Of a stretch of DNA of 54,044 nucleotides, positions 17,147 to 48,073 are shown piece after piece. The translations under genes and the position numbers were made by a program. The DNA comes from Rhodospirillaceae bacterium (lineage in GTDB: Bacteria; Pseudomonadota; Alphaproteobacteria; SMXQ01): assembly GCA_947474495.1 (NCBI GenBank), contig CANJIM010000010.1, positions 1 to 54,044 of the forward strand. Direction: 5' to 3'. The notes below the pieces were generated by a model. That model ran no database searches. It was not told the DNA's origin and saw only the letters and a program-made list of their open reading frames with translations. The first letter of the stretch is position 1. Each line of letters begins with the position of its first letter.

Positions 17147-17734
17147 TCAGGCGGGCTTCAGATCCATCGCCTTCTTCACCGCCGGGCGCGCGCCAACGCG
17201 TGCCAGCCAAGCCGCGACATTCGGGTAGTCCTCGACCTTGACGATGTCATGCTTCACGCCATTGATGCGCGTGAAGGGAATGATATCGGCAATCGAATAG
17301 TCGTCGGCGAAAAAGTCCCGGCCGGTCAGATGTGCGTCCATCACCTCGAACAATTTCTGCGAGCCCGACACGATTGATGGCTCTTCGATGCGCCCAAGGT
17401 TGCCGAGCAGGCTCAGCACATTGGTCGCGTGAAACATCGACCATTTCAACACGTTAGGATGGTCGACCGGGGAGCCGAGAAACTTGCCTGTCTTCTCGGC
17501 GAGATAGAAGCAGATGGCCACCGATTCGAAGACATTGGCTGGCTTGCCGCCTGGGCCGTCGCTATCGATCAGCGCCGGCACCTTGCGGTAGGGATTGATC
17601 TTCTCGTAGCCGGCTGCCTTCTGATCGCCCTTGTGAATATTCGTCCATTTGATCGTGTAGGGCAGCCCCGATTCTTCGCACATGATGATGCCGCGGCGGC
17701 TGTTGGTCGTGGTCCAGGTGTACAGATCAATCAC
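17147..17734 (-). CDS. Glutathione S-transferase family protein
   Basis: Translation most likely starts at GTG 17734, which has GGGGGGAG upstream, giving VIDLYTWTTTNSRR and a 195-residue protein; the frame is open further upstream but runs into the dioxygenase gene. The N-terminal thioredoxin-like half contains INPYRKVPALIDSDG and FESVAICFYLAEKTG, the usual glutathione-binding cis-Pro and E-S motifs. The C-terminal helical half has FFADDYSIADIIPF, the conserved N-capping region. It is the last gene of a probable minus-strand unit, 28 bp after the dioxygenase, which suggests processing or detoxification of the same substrate. Confidence 0.9.
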   Translation of the reverse strand: MIDLYTWTTTNSRRGIIMCEESGLPYTIKWTNIHKGDQKAAGYEKINPYRKVPALIDSDGPGGKPANVFESVAICFYLAEKTGKFLGSPVDHPNVLKWSMFHATNVLSLLGNLGRIEEPSIVSGSQKLFEVMDAHLTGRDFFADDYSIADIIPFTRINGVKHDIVKVEDYPNVAAWLARVGARPAVKKAMDLKPA

Positions 17735-17762
17735 GGCGTCTCTCCCCCCTCGATTTTTAAAC

Positions 17763-18602
17763 TCAGTAAGGCCGGTCGCCCTTGACGGTGACACGCCGCA
17801 TCATGCGGCGCGTACCGGGATCAAAATCGGTACGCGCATGCAGGGCGCAGCGATTGTCCCACATCACCAGATCGCCGACACGCCATTTATGGCCGTAGAT
17901 GAACTCGGGCTTTTCAATCTGCAAGAACAGCTCTTCGAGCAAGGCGTCGCTCTCGGTCCGATCAAGACCGATGATGTGATTGGTCATGAGCCGGTTGACA
18001 TAAACGCCCTTGCGGCCGGTCTCCGGATGGGTGCGCACGACGGGATGAACGAATTTCGGCGCGTTCTCGTCGATCTTGTCGCTTTTGATGGTCGAGGCGT
18101 TGCCGTAATCGTAAACGTTCAGCGCCTGCAGCCCCTCAAGGCGCTTTTGAGTCGCGGTCGGCAAGGAATCGTAAACGGCGGTCGCGCTGGAAAACAGCGT
18201 GTCGCCGCCCGATGGCGGCACCTCGATGCCAAACAGCATCGTCGCCATGGCCGGGTTCTCGTAATAGCATTGGTCGGAGTGAAACTGCATTTCCCCGTCG
18301 GGCAGCGCACCTTTCTGGCCATCGATCACCACATTGGTGACCATCAGCACATAGGGATTCTTGTAAAGGCCGGGCGTCGTGCGCACCGGCTGCAGGTCGC
18401 CAAAGCGCCGGGCGAAGGCAATCTGCTGATCCTCGCTGAGCGACTGGCCGCGAAACAGAATCACTTGATGTTTGAGCCAGACGTCATGGATGGCTTTAAA
18501 AGTAGCGTCGCTCAGCGGTTGCGACAGATCGACGCCGGCAATCTCCGCCCCCAGCGCGGACGAGAGGGGCCGCACCGTCAAATTCAGCGTATCGCCTTGC
18601 AT
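17763..18602 (-). CDS. TauD/TfdA-family Fe(II)/2-oxoglutarate dioxygenase 2
   Basis: The ATG at 18602 follows GCAGGAGGG, so the long N-terminal extension of the open frame is ignored. The 279-residue protein has VRPLSSALGAEIAGVDLSQPL, the iron-binding FHSDQCYYE (His and Asp) and WDNRCALHARTDFDPGTRR (distal His and downstream Arg). It is clearly related to the dioxygenase at 4247-5128 but more divergent than the GMC copies are from each other. It precedes a GST and follows the DUF120 and SnoaL genes on the same strand. The substrate is unknown. Confidence 0.9.
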   Translation of the reverse strand: MQGDTLNLTVRPLSSALGAEIAGVDLSQPLSDATFKAIHDVWLKHQVILFRGQSLSEDQQIAFARRFGDLQPVRTTPGLYKNPYVLMVTNVVIDGQKGALPDGEMQFHSDQCYYENPAMATMLFGIEVPPSGGDTLFSSATAVYDSLPTATQKRLEGLQALNVYDYGNASTIKSDKIDENAPKFVHPVVRTHPETGRKGVYVNRLMTNHIIGLDRTESDALLEELFLQIEKPEFIYGHKWRVGDLVMWDNRCALHARTDFDPGTRRMMRRVTVKGDRPY

Positions 18603-18703
18603 CGGGAGCCCTCCTGCGGACTCGAAGCGCTTGAGAAGCTTCGATTGCTTATTTTCGCCAGGATAGCCGATCTGCTTCGCGCCTGGAAAGGGGCTCGCCC
18701 GTT

Positions 18704-19096
18704 TCAAAATTTCAGATCGAGGGAGACGGCGTCGCCGTCCCGCGCTTCGAGCCATTCGCGCAAATTCATGCCCGCCACGAGCTCGATCTGATCCTGCGGA
18801 TAGTTCTCCACCAGCGGCAGCACGATCACCACTGCCGCGAAATGGGTTTGGTGCAAGATCTTGGCGCGCAGGCAGCGCGCATCGCACCAAGTGGGATCTG
18901 GCGCCTTGAACAGCTGACCATGCGCCGCCGCATCCTGCCATGCGGCGATTGATGCTGCATCGACGCGCACATTCAACGTGCCGGGAAACGGATCGATGCC
19001 GTAACTATCGCGAAACACGCCGAGCGCCCAATCGGTGCGCGTGAATCCGGCGCCAATGCCCTGCCCTGTTTCGATCTTGCCGGAAATATGCGTCAT
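18704..19096 (-). CDS. DUF120 protein, archaeal CTP-dependent riboflavin kinase family
   Basis: This 130-residue protein matches the RibK/DUF120 pattern along its whole length. It opens with GKIETGQGIGAGFT, corresponding to the archaeal G-x-V-x-S-G-x-G loop. DPFPGTLNVRVD carries the T-x-N pair that binds Mg2+ and the phosphate donor in the Methanocaldococcus enzyme. YPQDQIELVAGMNLREWL and ARDGDAVSL match the C-terminal E-LR-L-DGD signature. The known enzyme phosphorylates riboflavin with CTP. Bacteria normally use the unrelated RibF, so this copy may have another substrate. It lies 13 bp after the SnoaL gene and 101 bp before the dioxygenase. Confidence 0.75.
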   Translation of the reverse strand: MTHISGKIETGQGIGAGFTRTDWALGVFRDSYGIDPFPGTLNVRVDAASIAAWQDAAAHGQLFKAPDPTWCDARCLRAKILHQTHFAAVVIVLPLVENYPQDQIELVAGMNLREWLEARDGDAVSLDLKF

Positions 19097-19109
19097 ATCA
19101 CTCTACCTG

Positions 19110-19529
19110 CTAGTGCAATCGGGTGGAGGACGGCGCGGCGGGCGCGGCGTCCAGTTTCGGCGCATGGTCGGTCTGACCGGATTGATGCAGCGCCATCCGC
19201 CAGATGCCGCCTTCGCGCACGAACATGTTGGTGGCGACCAGATGAATATCGCCGATCGCTTCCCAGCAAACGACAACGCCGGCGCCGTCGAGCAGGAAGG
19301 CGCGCGGCTCGAGCACAGCGATGGCCGGACGGGGCGGATTGGCGAGAATGCCGCGCCAACTCTGCACGATCTGATCACGCGATTTCAGCGGCGGCCAACC
19401 AGGATGCAGGCAGGCGACGGGATGATCCCGCGCCCATAGCTCCTCCATCGCCGCGGCGTCACCCCGCGCGAAGGCCCCATAGAACGCCTCGTTAGCCAAT
19501 AAAAGCTCATCTTCGTCCCGACCGGGCAT
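19110..19529 (-). CDS. SnoaL-like (NTF2 fold) protein
   Basis: The 139-residue product shows the SnoaL_3/DUF4440 arrangement: an N-terminal helix (LLLANEAFYGAFARGDAAAMEELWA), then DHPVACLHPGWPPLKSRDQI, a conserved strand pair and a final WRMALHQSGQ. The fold forms a small cone-shaped pocket used by steroid isomerases, polyketide cyclases and dehydratases; many members have no assigned activity. It is the first gene of the probable minus-strand unit SnoaL-DUF120-TauD-GST and diverges from a DMT transporter with 112 bp between the start codons. Confidence 0.83.
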   Translation of the reverse strand: MPGRDEDELLLANEAFYGAFARGDAAAMEELWARDHPVACLHPGWPPLKSRDQIVQSWRGILANPPRPAIAVLEPRAFLLDGAGVVVCWEAIGDIHLVATNMFVREGGIWRMALHQSGQTDHAPKLDAAPAAPSSTRLH

Positions 19530-32049: not shown

Positions 32050-33096
32050 TTAGGGTTGCTTCATCGCTTTGATGAGGCGATCGACCACCGGCTTGGGCGT
32101 CTCGTAGATGCGTGCGACGAGCTTCTGGACGTTCTCGCCGCTGTCGAAGTCGACTTCCAGCTTGGCTTTCTCGGCATCGGCCAAATAACCGGGATCCTTC
32201 ATCGTCGCGGCGAAGGCATCGCGCAGCGCCTTCATGGTCGCTTCCGGCACGCCCGGCGGCGCGACAAACGGACGGCCGAACACTTGCTGGCCAACCATCA
32301 GCTCCAACAACTGCTTGTCCGACTCGTTCTTCACGAATTGCCAGACCGGCGGCACGCCCATCTTGGTCAGTTCAGGATCGTTCTCCATGCCGAACTGCAC
32401 AAAAATGTTGACGCCCTTGGTCTCAAGCCAGTCTGGCTTTTGCGTCTTCAGGCTCGTCCAGGCCCAGCCGCAGAGTCCATCGGCCTCGCCGCGCTCGACG
32501 GCGAGCGTGATCTCCTTGGTGCCTTTGTAGCCGCGGATGATCTTGAACTTGGTGCCGAGCACTTCGTTCATCACCGCCGGATAGTCTTGCGTCGAGCCGC
32601 CGTCCGCCGTCGCCGCGATGATCGATTCGCTTTTTATCGCGTCTTCCATCGTCTTGACCGCCGCGTCGCTGCGCATCGCGCAGACGCGGATTTCTTTGTT
32701 GGCGGTGCCGAGATAATTGAACTTCGGCGGATCGAACTTCAGCCGGCCGGGATCGAGCAGCGGCGTCATGATGGCGCCGGGAAAGACGATACCGAACACC
32801 GAACCGTCCTTCGGCGCGACGCTGTAGATGAACTCGGCCGCCTTGTTGCTGCCGGCACCCGGCATGTTCTTGACGACAATGGTCGGACTGCCGGGAATAT
32901 GCTTCGCAATATGCTTGCCGACCGCACGACCATAAATATCGTAGCCGCCGCCGGCATCGCCGCCGACGATTAGATCGACCGACTTGCCCTTGTAGAAATT
33001 CTCGACGCTCGCCTGTGCCAAGGCCTGGCCGCCGAGGCCGACCATGCAGAGACCGGCAACGGCAGACAGAATCCGGACTTGATGAGAATTCGGCAT
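32050..33096 (-). CDS. Tripartite tricarboxylate-type binding protein 2
   Basis: The ATG at 33096 has CAGGGAGT upstream and opens a signal peptide ending QALAQA. The 348-residue protein shows FYKGKSVDLIVGGDAGGGYD, IVVKNMPGAGSNKAA and LAVERGEADGLCGWAWTSLK. It is the most divergent of the three tandem copies here: the loop around residue 140 (ADGGSTQDYPAVMNEVLG) differs. No TctA/TctB genes are near. The three genes are transcribed the same way with 150-185 bp gaps and hairpins between, so each is probably its own unit. Confidence 0.87.
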   Translation of the reverse strand: MPNSHQVRILSAVAGLCMVGLGGQALAQASVENFYKGKSVDLIVGGDAGGGYDIYGRAVGKHIAKHIPGSPTIVVKNMPGAGSNKAAEFIYSVAPKDGSVFGIVFPGAIMTPLLDPGRLKFDPPKFNYLGTANKEIRVCAMRSDAAVKTMEDAIKSESIIAATADGGSTQDYPAVMNEVLGTKFKIIRGYKGTKEITLAVERGEADGLCGWAWTSLKTQKPDWLETKGVNIFVQFGMENDPELTKMGVPPVWQFVKNESDKQLLELMVGQQVFGRPFVAPPGVPEATMKALRDAFAATMKDPGYLADAEKAKLEVDFDSGENVQKLVARIYETPKPVVDRLIKAMKQP

Positions 33097-33190
33097 CAAT
33101 GACTCCCTGTTTTTTACGGCTATTGGCACCGCTTATCGACTCTTCTACACGGCGATCCTGCGCTTGTCACCTCGCCTTCCGCATAAGAAA

Positions 33191-33220
33191 AACCCCGCTC
33201 GGCAGGACCGAAGCGGGGTT
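33191..33220 (-). terminator. Intrinsic terminator of binding protein 3
   Basis: On the minus strand AACCCCGCTTCGG pairs with CCGAGCGGGGTT, followed by TTTCTTA. It lies about 30 bp past the gene ending at 33250. Confidence 0.8.
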
Positions 33221-33249
33221 CAAAGGCACGTCTGATCAAGCCATGTGGC

Positions 33250-34278
33250 TTACTTCGGGGCGGTGATCGCCTTGGTCAGCTTGTCGGCGATGTCCTGCGG
33301 CGTCGCCGCGATCTTGGCGATGATCTTCTGGATGTCCTCGCCGGTCGCCGGCTCGACATCGAGCGCGAGCTTCTCGGCTTCGGCGATGAAGGCCTTGTCC
33401 TTGGTCATATCGATGAAGGCCTTACGCAAGGCAAGGACGCGATCGTTCGGCACGTTCGGCGGCGCCACCAGCGGACGGGCGACCGTCTTCTGGATGAAGA
33501 ACAGCTCCATGATCTCGCGATCTTCTTCGCTCTTGGCGAAGTCGAGGGCGAGCGGCACGTCGAGGTCCGGCGCCTTCTCGAGCCCGACCTGCATGAGAAT
33601 GTTCAGGTTCGGGCGCAGGTCGGTGCGGCGCTTCACGTTGCTCCAAGCAAGGTCGGCGGTGCCGCCCACTTCGCCGCGCTCCATGGCCAACAAAATTTCC
33701 GTGTTGCCGGTGTAGCCCGAAACGATACGGAATTTGGTGCCGATCAGCGCGTTGAGCAAACGCGGCGTGGTTTCCGGATCAAGCGTCGGGCCGGGGCCGC
33801 CGACGATCAGCTCGGTCTTAAACAAGTCGTCGGTCGTCTTCACCGCGTTGTTCTTCCACGACACTATGGTGGCGACTTCAGGGGCGAGATTGCCGATCCA
33901 ATTCATCTTCTCGACGTCGAAGCGCACGCCGTTCGGATTGGTCAGCTTGGCGGTCAACATGCCGCGCTGGACGACGCCGATGAAAGAACCGTCCTTCGGC
34001 GCGAGATTGTAGAGATTGTTCGTCGCCGTCAGACTGCCGGCACCCGGCATGTTCTGCACGATCATGTTGGGATTGCCCGGCAGATGGCTGCCAAGGAAGC
34101 GCGCGAACAAAAGCGCCGTCGCGTCATAACCGCCGCCGGCTGCCGAGCCGACGATGATCGTCACTTGCTTGCCCTTGTAGAACTCTTCGACCGACTGCGC
34201 CTGCGACGGGGCAGCGAAGGCGGCATAGACACTCACGACAGCGCCGGCGAAACCGGCAAGTCCCATAAAACGAGACAT
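33250..34278 (-). CDS. Tripartite tricarboxylate-type binding protein 3
   Basis: The 342-residue product begins with a signal peptide ending PSQAQS and continues FYKGKQVTIIVGSAAGGGYD, VQNMPGAGSLTATNNLYN, GPGPTLDPETTPRLLNALIG and LAMERGEVGGTADLAWSNVK. It is closely similar to binding protein 4 along the whole length, pointing to tandem duplication. The ligand loop (VVQRGMLTAKLTNPNGVRFD) is nearly shared with copy 4, so the two probably bind related carboxylates. Membrane partners must be encoded elsewhere. Confidence 0.9.
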   Translation of the reverse strand: MSRFMGLAGFAGAVVSVYAAFAAPSQAQSVEEFYKGKQVTIIVGSAAGGGYDATALLFARFLGSHLPGNPNMIVQNMPGAGSLTATNNLYNLAPKDGSFIGVVQRGMLTAKLTNPNGVRFDVEKMNWIGNLAPEVATIVSWKNNAVKTTDDLFKTELIVGGPGPTLDPETTPRLLNALIGTKFRIVSGYTGNTEILLAMERGEVGGTADLAWSNVKRRTDLRPNLNILMQVGLEKAPDLDVPLALDFAKSEEDREIMELFFIQKTVARPLVAPPNVPNDRVLALRKAFIDMTKDKAFIAEAEKLALDVEPATGEDIQKIIAKIAATPQDIADKLTKAITAPK

Positions 34279-34362
34279 GAACGCTCCTATTTGAAGGCGA
34301 TCGAGCGTTTTCCAACCCTAGACATGTGCCGATCTTCTAGACCCTTTCTTGCCAAAAGAATA

Positions 34363-34389
34363 CGGCGCCTCGGTATATCCGAGACGCCG
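34363..34389 (-). terminator. Probable terminator of binding protein 4
   Basis: An 11-bp imperfect stem (34363-34373 with 34379-34389, one mismatch, TATAT loop) is followed on the minus strand by TATTCTTTT. Confidence 0.55.
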
Positions 34390-34462
34390 CAGTATATTTT
34401 CAACAGGGTAAGTACCCAATGATTGGGCGTTCTCTTGGCTACCGCTGCCGCAGGCGTGCGCC

Positions 34463-35506
34463 TTAGCGGGTGGGCGGCGCAATCGCGGCCGATAGCTTGT
34501 CGGCGAGCGCAGGCGGCGTTTTCACGATGCGGGCCACCACCTTGTCGACGTCGGCGCCCGACGTCATGCCGATGTCGAGTTTGCTTTTGTCGGCGTCCTG
34601 CATGAAGTCCAGATCCTTGCCCGTCGCCATGAAAGCGGTGCGCAAGGCTTCGATGCGATCCTTCGGCACATCGGGCGGCGCGACCAGCGGCCGCGCCACG
34701 GTCTTCTGCGCCATGATCAATTCCATGATCTGGCGATCTTCGGCATTTTTGACGTAGTCCAGGGCGAGCGGCACGTCGGGCAGATCAGGCTCCTTCTCCA
34801 ACGCGCTTTGCATCAGCACGCGGATTTTCTTGTCACGCAAGTAATCGCCGCGCCGGCTCTTCACATTCGACCACGACCAGTCGCCGAGCCCCATGACTTC
34901 GCCCCGTTCCATGGCGAGCGTCACTTCCGTCGTTCCGGGATAACCCGAGATGACTTTAAATTTGGTACCGATCAGCGCATTGAGCAGGCGCGGCGTCGTC
35001 TCGGTGTCGATGGTCGGGCCGGTGCCGCCGACGATCATCTCTTTCGTAAAGAGATCCTCCGTCGTCTGAATCGGCGAATCAGCCCAGGCGACGACCACCG
35101 CCGTCTCCGAGGCCATGTTGCCGATCCAGTTAAACTTGGCGATGTCGAATCGCACGCCGGTTGGGTTGGTGAGCGTCGCGGTCAACATGCCGCGCTGAAC
35201 CATGCCGAAGGTCGAGCCGTCCTTGGGCGAGATATTATAGAGGTTGTTGGCCGCCTGCAGGCTGCCCGCCGCCGGCAAGTTCTGCACGACGATACTGGGA
35301 TTGCCCGGCATGTGTTTGCTGAGATGGCGCGCCAGCAGCCGTGCCTGCGCGTCATAGCCGCCGCCAGGGCTCGAGCCGACGATGAAGGTGAGCTGTTTGC
35401 CCTTGTAGAACTCGGCAGGCGCTTGTGCCGCCGCCCAGCCGCTCGCCGCCACCCATGCAGATAAAGCCACAGCGCTCGCCAATGCGGGCCGATGCAGGGT
35501 CTTCAT
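34463..35506 (-). CDS. Tripartite tricarboxylate-type binding protein 4
   Basis: The ATG at 35506 follows GGGAGG. A signal peptide (ending WAAAQA) precedes FYKGKQLTFIVGSSPGGGYD, VVQNLPAAGSLQAANNLYN, GGTGPTIDTETTPRLLNALIG and LAMERGEVMGLGDWSWSNVK. The 347-residue protein is the upstream member of the three-gene tandem and is the closest relative of copy 3. It also shares the SWSNVK block with copy 1 at 2787. These are periplasmic receptors; without TctAB here the cognate permease is unassigned. Confidence 0.9.
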   Translation of the reverse strand: MKTLHRPALASAVALSAWVAASGWAAAQAPAEFYKGKQLTFIVGSSPGGGYDAQARLLARHLSKHMPGNPSIVVQNLPAAGSLQAANNLYNISPKDGSTFGMVQRGMLTATLTNPTGVRFDIAKFNWIGNMASETAVVVAWADSPIQTTEDLFTKEMIVGGTGPTIDTETTPRLLNALIGTKFKVISGYPGTTEVTLAMERGEVMGLGDWSWSNVKSRRGDYLRDKKIRVLMQSALEKEPDLPDVPLALDYVKNAEDRQIMELIMAQKTVARPLVAPPDVPKDRIEALRTAFMATGKDLDFMQDADKSKLDIGMTSGADVDKVVARIVKTPPALADKLSAAIAPPTR

Positions 35507-35768
35507 TTTGGCGCCTCCCAGGCTGTTTGCCGTCAGCCTAGCGACTGCCATCCCCCCTGACAATCTCCAGAAACCGGACAATTATCAAAAACACATATTA
35601 ATCAATGGCTTGTAACTATCCTTGACCACCCCCACCTCTTTAGGGCTTTATTTATATGCCTTTAGTTATGATCGGCTTTCAAAATGACCAGCCACAGCCC
35701 CATGCAGAACCCGTTATCGCGTTTTGATCCCCCGCCGTCAGCCGTCTCGCCCCAGGGCCCGGCCGCTC

Positions 35769-47014: not shown

Positions 47015-48073
47015 ATGACCATTTCCCGCCATCTCTGCGAGTCCGCCTGCGCGGCGCTGCTCGTCGCCGGCCTCGCCACCACCGCCAGCGCCCAATCGGT
47101 CGCCGAGTTCTACAAGGGCCGCCAGATCAACGTCATCGCCAGCACCGGCGTCGGCGGCGACTACGATCTCGCGGCGCGCACCATCACGCGCCACATGGGC
47201 AAATATATTCCCGGCAATCCGCACTTCGTGGTGCAGAACATGCCGGGCGCCGGCCATGTGCTCGCCACCAACTATCTTTATAACCAAGCGGCCAAGGACG
47301 GCAGCGCCTTCGGCACGGTCGGCAACAGCATCGTGCTGCACCAAGTGCTCGACGGCAAAGGCGTGCGCTACGACGCCAGCAAGTTCAATTGGATCGGCAC
47401 CACCGGCATCAGCAACTTGATGACGGCGGTGTGGCATACGACCGGCGTGAAGAGCGTCGAGGATTTGCGCACGACGCAGGTGATCTCCGGCGGCACCGGC
47501 GCCGGCTCGGGCTCGGTGCTCTACACCACGGTTGCCACCAATCTGCTCGGCCTGAAGTTCAAGAACGTCGTCGGCTACGAACGCGCGCGCGACATCGATA
47601 TCGCCATGGAGCGCGGCGAGGTGCAGGCGCGCAGCGGTTTCAGTTACGGCAGCTTGGCCGGCGAGCATCCCGACTGGATCAAGGACGGCAAGGTCGTCTT
47701 CGTCTTCCAGGTCGGCACCAAGCGCGCGCCGGAACTGCCGAACGTGCCGCTGATGACCGATCTGGCGCGCAATGACGACGAGCGCCAGGTGCTGCGCATG
47801 ATCTCCTCGCCGGTCGGCCTCGGCCGCCCCTATCTCACGCCGCCGGACGTGCCGGCCGACCGCGTCGCCGCGCTGCGCCAGGCGTTCGACGCGACCGTGA
47901 AGGACGCCGCCTTCCTCGCCGACGTGAAGAAGCAGGACTTTGATCTTTACCCCGACACCGGCGCCAACGTCGCCGCCATCGTCGCCGAAACGGTCGGCGC
48001 CTCGCCGGCCATCATCGAGAAGGCCAAGGCGGCCATGCAGCCGAAAGACGCCCCGGCGGAAGCCAAGAAGTAA
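47015..48073 (+). CDS. Tripartite tricarboxylate-type binding protein 5
   Basis: The ATG at 47015 has CAGGAGA upstream. A signal peptide (ending TTASAQ) precedes FYKGRQINVIASTGVGGDYD, in place of the usual AGGGYD loop, then VQNMPGAGHVLATNYLYN, SGGTGAGSGSVLYTTVATNLLG and IAMERGEVQARSGFSYGSLA. The 352-residue protein is the most divergent of the five and stands alone on the plus strand 95 bp after lrgB. A carboxylate ligand is likely. A Pro/Ala/Lys tail ends the protein. Confidence 0.88.
   Translation: MTISRHLCESACAALLVAGLATTASAQSVAEFYKGRQINVIASTGVGGDYDLAARTITRHMGKYIPGNPHFVVQNMPGAGHVLATNYLYNQAAKDGSAFGTVGNSIVLHQVLDGKGVRYDASKFNWIGTTGISNLMTAVWHTTGVKSVEDLRTTQVISGGTGAGSGSVLYTTVATNLLGLKFKNVVGYERARDIDIAMERGEVQARSGFSYGSLAGEHPDWIKDGKVVFVFQVGTKRAPELPNVPLMTDLARNDDERQVLRMISSPVGLGRPYLTPPDVPADRVAALRQAFDATVKDAAFLADVKKQDFDLYPDTGANVAAIVAETVGASPAIIEKAKAAMQPKDAPAEAKK

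Follow-up and report, generated by a model that had tools for sequence, protein, structure and literature searches.

CTP-dependent riboflavin kinase of the DUF120 family (PF01982) is usually regarded as an archaeal enzyme, in which a T-x-N motif binds Mg and a glutamate sits by the acceptor hydroxyl. RibF usually converts FMN onward to FAD, and UbiX takes reduced FMN and DMAP as its substrates. DMAP can be produced in E. coli by NUDIX enzymes (NudJ) and by ThiM, the latter using prenol (PMC12359138). Producing active enzyme in E. coli is difficult for some members of the UbiD family (PMC10865409).

The DNA analysed here, a stretch of 54,044 nucleotides (hereafter, the window), carries a bacterial DUF120 gene in the following setting:

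19110-19529, minus strand: SnoaL_3-like protein, 139 aa (PF13474, 63 bits), immediately upstream of the DUF120 gene, with a gap of 13 bp
18704-19096, minus strand: bacterial DUF120/PF01982 protein, 130 aa (Pfam, AlphaFold2, dN/dS)
17763-18605, minus strand: TauD/TfdA-type 2-oxoglutarate dioxygenase, 280 aa (PF02668, 255 bits), 98 bp downstream of the DUF120 gene
about 17147-17755 (start codon provisional), minus strand: glutathione S-transferase (GST)-like protein (PF13409/PF02798), downstream

Integrity, family membership and fold

A genome search found the DUF120 gene as a single copy, and AGGTAGAG precedes its start. Its counterpart in the sister genome is 88% identical at the amino acid level, with dN of 0.07, dS of 0.75 (dN/dS about 0.1) and the third codon positions as the most diverged; dN this far below dS shows a protein under purifying selection. 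The gene is real and intact: the profile match, the fold and dN/dS ruled out a shadow ORF or chance frame.

The first-pass annotation had considered the protein a homologue of CTP-dependent riboflavin kinases on the basis of three motifs, all of which are present (GKIETGQGIGAG, PGTLNVRV and LREWLEARDGD). The profile search it proposed gave a significant match to PF01982 (E-value 3e-22, 79.2 bits against the curated cut-off of 25 bits), covering profile positions 3-119 of 121. The landmarks are the G-x-G loop at residues 11-13, PGTLN at 38-42, E105 and R113. In an alignment of 71 sequences (52 bacterial and 19 archaeal), P38, G39, T40, N42, P94 and E105 are invariant across bacteria and archaea, the T-x-N residues thus being retained throughout. 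Significant phmmer matches in PDB were confined to riboflavin kinases (3cta/5trd and the MJ0056 entries).

The AlphaFold2 model, built with 71 homologues, has a mean pLDDT of 91.8. The suggested comparison with MJ0056 gave a Z-score of 17.6 to 2vbv (MJ0056 with CDP and FMN), and the same score was obtained with 5trd (RbkR with CTP), in both cases at 1.9 Å over about 126 residues; the top structural match outside the PF01982 family had a Z-score of 7.6. The protein as modelled has the cradle-loop/RIFT barrel fold of MJ0056. The cut-offs of the NCBIfam archaeal RibK equivalogs NF040694 and NF010762 were missed (50.5 of 168 and 56.1 of 279 bits, respectively). The position of T99 in MJ0056, which we take to be the FMN-contacting threonine, is occupied by Glu97 in the window protein, by T or S in 19/19 archaea and mostly by A, P or E in bacteria.

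Bacterial branch and its distribution

A tree built from 80 sequences has one branch, with a support of 100/100 and a length of 1.06, that splits the 54 bacterial rows from the 23 archaeal ones; as the root is undefined, this shows the separateness of bacterial and archaeal proteins and not direction. The label ‘archaeal-type’ given in the first-pass annotation is not supported in the sense of a stray archaeal acquisition: the gene belongs to this separate bacterial branch. Recent transfer from archaea was rejected on the basis of the tree, and a viral origin on the basis of a search that found no relative in viral contigs. The bacterial proteins are marked by F18-T19, W23, C71 (52/52), V96 and Y99.

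Counting one genome per species, relatives were found in Alpha-, Beta-, Gamma- and Deltaproteobacteria, Chloroflexota, Acidobacteriota, Nitrospinota, Bacillota and archaea. Of the 11 genomes of the window's own family, 10 carry the gene and the remaining one is a fragmented assembly; it occurs further in only 14/386 genomes of its class, and in 8/369 and 5/196 genomes of two other classes. One annotated bacterial copy, from Azoarcus, is named merely ‘DUF120 domain-containing protein’. Archaeal DUF120 relatives adjoin an apparent RibB, so annotated in Natrinema.

Divergent PF01982 proteins were seen in alphaproteobacterial families f42/f23 (L025, L028) and f131 (L026, L027). They are without C71 and W23 and their genomes are without UbiD expansion; they probably have another function, and we treated them as a separate subgroup and left them aside.

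Genomic context in the window's lineage

Pfam confirmed the SnoaL, 2-oxoglutarate dioxygenase and GST neighbours named in the first-pass annotation. The SnoaL-like and DUF120 genes are probably on one transcript, and an accessory role of the SnoaL-like protein is putative. Conservation of gene order, which the same annotation had proposed to check, proved to be limited: the sister genome, which holds the nearest DUF120 relative, has the same SnoaL-DUF120-TauD-GST arrangement, but the exact unit is confined to the window's own genus. Within the family, a SnoaL-like gene (cluster C12) is found near DUF120 in seven loci and a GST (cluster C8) in eight; in other family members DUF120 is surrounded by TAXI-like and 4Fe-4S proteins, or by a dehydrogenase and a radical SAM protein. 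In three genomes of the family (L015:10016-10927, L020 and L014) the gene immediately upstream of DUF120 encodes a TAXI/NMT1-like substrate-binding protein that lacks an obvious signal peptide.

No UbiX or UbiD gene was found within the window, nor within roughly 10 kb of DUF120 in the alphaproteobacterial families f1 and f102. The tie of the window's lineage to prenyl-FMN (prFMN) is indirect, through the shared branch, through UbiX and many UbiD genes elsewhere in the genome, and through paralogues. Among the latter, the window TauD shares 43% identity with one encoded in the UbiX/UbiD cluster of a family relative (G004). Counterparts of the cyclodeaminase-like and TctC-type proteins encoded near relatives' DUF120 genes occur in the family's UbiX clusters, with about 37-49% identity. 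TctC-type (tripartite tricarboxylate transporter) binding proteins are abundant around the UbiX/UbiD clusters of the family, and several, three of them consecutive, were recognised by eye in the window at 32053-35581 and 47015-48070.

A separate RibF, whose presence the first-pass annotation had asked about, is encoded in the same genome, as it is in 44 of the 46 bacterial genomes checked. Replacement of a lost RibF is thereby ruled out, and the retention of RibF alongside DUF120 implies that DUF120 adds something.

Co-occurrence with UbiD

The genome encodes 13 UbiD proteins. It has two matches to the Flavoprotein family (PF02441), of which the stronger, at C11, is of UbiX size and the other, a 408-aa frame, resembles CoaBC. 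UbiD counts per genome range from 9 to 18 in the window's family and from 28 to 37 in family f102. UbiD was present in all 30 further bacterial carriers of DUF120 checked, in 1 to 31 copies, some carriers having a single one.

In the window's class, at least seven UbiD genes were counted in 9/9 carriers of close-type DUF120 and in 2/377 other genomes, the counts being lower bounds with up to seven candidates scored per genome; the Fisher p of 1e-16 overstates independence, since the nine carriers fall in two families. In the class of a Dehalococcoidia MAG (G426), UbiD was found in 5/5 carriers versus 28/191 others (p 1e-4). Both correlations are uncorrected for kinship. Another genome of this class (G463, loci L145 and L150; 6.5 Mb) has an extraordinary number of first-look UbiD candidates, 90, of which 14 were scored, all above the cut-off. 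Other genomes are rich in UbiD but lack DUF120, which suggests that DUF120 is helpful and not necessary. A member of the window's own family (G009) has 15 UbiD genes and no DUF120 match.

Physical linkage to UbiX and UbiD in relatives

In a Chloroflexi locus (L072), UbiX and DUF120 are fused in a single 344-aa frame (PF02441, 145 bits; PF01982, 89 bits), the UbiX part scoring 274 bits to the NCBIfam UbiX family. In nine loci of deltaproteobacterial type DUF120 directly follows UbiX, with UbiD genes in the same operon in eight of the nine, wherever the contig extends far enough upstream. The DUF120 open frame begins inside the 3′ end of UbiX in 8/9 of these loci.

In eight loci (L061:8255-8290, L057, L059, L064, L065, L066, L070 and L073) no ATG, GTG or TTG was seen ahead of the conserved N-terminus of DUF120. 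The likely start codon of the deltaproteobacterial DUF120 is an ATT that shares bases with the stop codon of UbiX (ATTA) and follows AAAGGA or AAAGGG; frameshifting may also yield a UbiX-DUF120 fusion in these loci.

The annotated phenylphosphate-carboxylase-type operon of Azoarcus sp. KH32C has the order ppcB-ppcD-ppcA-ppcG, UbiD, UbiX, DUF120 (with a 4-bp overlap), NUDIX and AMP-binding protein. A motif search of the collected loci revealed no NUDIX gene near DUF120 elsewhere, which makes the Azoarcus NUDIX a single case.

Of 57 bacterial loci, with related ones each counted separately, 14 have UbiX within 3 kb of DUF120 and 29 have UbiX or UbiD within 10 kb of it. The independent settings include the deltaproteobacterial operon, Nitrospinota (L053), Ardenticatenia (L055/L062), Chloroflexi (L072), Chromatiales, Bacillota (L086) and Azoarcus. 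DUF120 is additionally fused to HAD phosphatases in Geobacter and Chromatiales (L068, L045) and to a PNPOx-type FMN-binding domain in Anaerolineae (L043). In plants, riboflavin kinase is fused to a HAD FMN hydrolase.

Proposed function and alternatives

We consider it probable that the window protein is a dedicated, likely CTP-dependent bacterial flavokinase that feeds FMN to UbiX for prFMN. In broader terms, the balance of evidence favours a cross-phylum bacterial subfamily of CTP-type flavokinases that would be a dedicated, hitherto unrecognised part of the prFMN pathway, supplying UbiX locally with FMN (or another of its precursors) and apart from RibF, with the window gene as its alphaproteobacterial form. 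DUF120 would move the gamma-phosphate of CTP onto riboflavin, the donor being assigned from the family, with T40 and N42 holding Mg and E105 placed by the acceptor hydroxyl. The FMN so made would come on top of that of RibF, not in its place, and would be prenylated by UbiX, the resulting prFMN serving the many UbiD decarboxylases of these cells. Whereas RibF usually processes FMN further to FAD, a monofunctional kinase would leave it free. The fold and the invariant T40, N42 and E105 speak for this function, as do the relatives in which UbiX is fused to DUF120 or overlaps it and the presence of UbiD in all carriers checked, which constitute a strong genomic tie to prFMN; doubt arises from the distance of UbiX and UbiD in the window's lineage, FMN production by RibF, the changed T99 position, the missed equivalog cut-offs, the UbiD-rich genomes without DUF120 and the carriers with one UbiD.

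The main doubt concerns the acceptor, which, given the altered acceptor-side residues and the coexisting RibF, could also be prenol or a different alcohol. A prenol (dimethylallyl alcohol) kinase would make DMAP, the other UbiX substrate, and would fit the UbiX linkage equally well; RibF already provides FMN, the site departs from the archaeal one on its acceptor side, and ThiM sets a precedent by making DMAP from prenol in E. coli (PMC12359138). We nevertheless regard this activity as unlikely: the separate NUDIX gene of Azoarcus could supply DMAP, in the simplest division of labour leaving FMN for DUF120, and the fusion to a PNPOx (FMN-type) domain fits a flavin better. To our knowledge, moreover, all characterised members of PF01982 are riboflavin kinases.

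The first-pass annotation had offered two functions, phosphorylation of another small molecule of the local cluster or supply of FMN under a special condition, and the latter fits the data much better. Phosphorylation of a substrate or intermediate of a SnoaL/TauD/GST catabolic unit would agree with the gene order kept in the sister genome and with the recurrence of GST and SnoaL near DUF120 in most of the family, but the neighbours vary among genera of the family and among phyla while the core residues stay constant, and the partners that recur across phyla are UbiX and UbiD; we give this function a small chance, slightly above that of the prenol kinase. About as improbable as the latter is a plain second riboflavin kinase whose co-occurrence with UbiD reflects the common lifestyle of aromatic-compound degraders. 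UbiD-rich genomes lacking DUF120 and the unlinked genes of the window's lineage speak for it, but lifestyle alone does not explain overlap or fusion with UbiX in several phyla.

Within the open literature searched we found no earlier statement that bacterial DUF120 or a flavokinase takes part in prFMN synthesis. Should the bacterial branch indeed feed UbiX, many bacteria that degrade aromatic compounds would possess a dedicated first step of prFMN synthesis; this would explain why the carriers possess two flavokinases from different families. DUF120 would then also be of practical use as a helper gene for UbiD enzymes.

Comparison with known systems

With the archaeal MJ0056/RibK (PDB 2vbv, 2vbu and 2oyn) the window protein has in common the fold, the G-x-G loop, PGTLN, the invariant Glu and the LR motif. 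It differs in belonging to the separate bacterial branch, in having F-T, W23, C71, V96 and Y99 where archaeal proteins usually carry other residues, and in the Glu at the Thr99 position; moreover, the bacterial gene lives beside RibF and with UbiX/UbiD, and not with RibB. The C-terminal kinase domain of RbkR from Thermoplasma acidophilum (PDB 5trd, 3cta) is alike (Z-score 17.6), whereas the winged-helix regulator domain of RbkR is absent from the window protein. RibF, the bacterial bifunctional FAD synthetase (PF01687), would share the product FMN with DUF120 but is of a different family, with a barrel that is distantly similar at most (1s4m, Z-score 6.7). LpdD and PhdC are likewise small proteins accompanying UbiX/UbiD (PMC10865409, PMC13040415). 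By the descriptions in their papers they are set apart by other folds, and they bind or mature prFMN (PMC10865409, PMC13040415), whereas DUF120 would make its FMN precursor.
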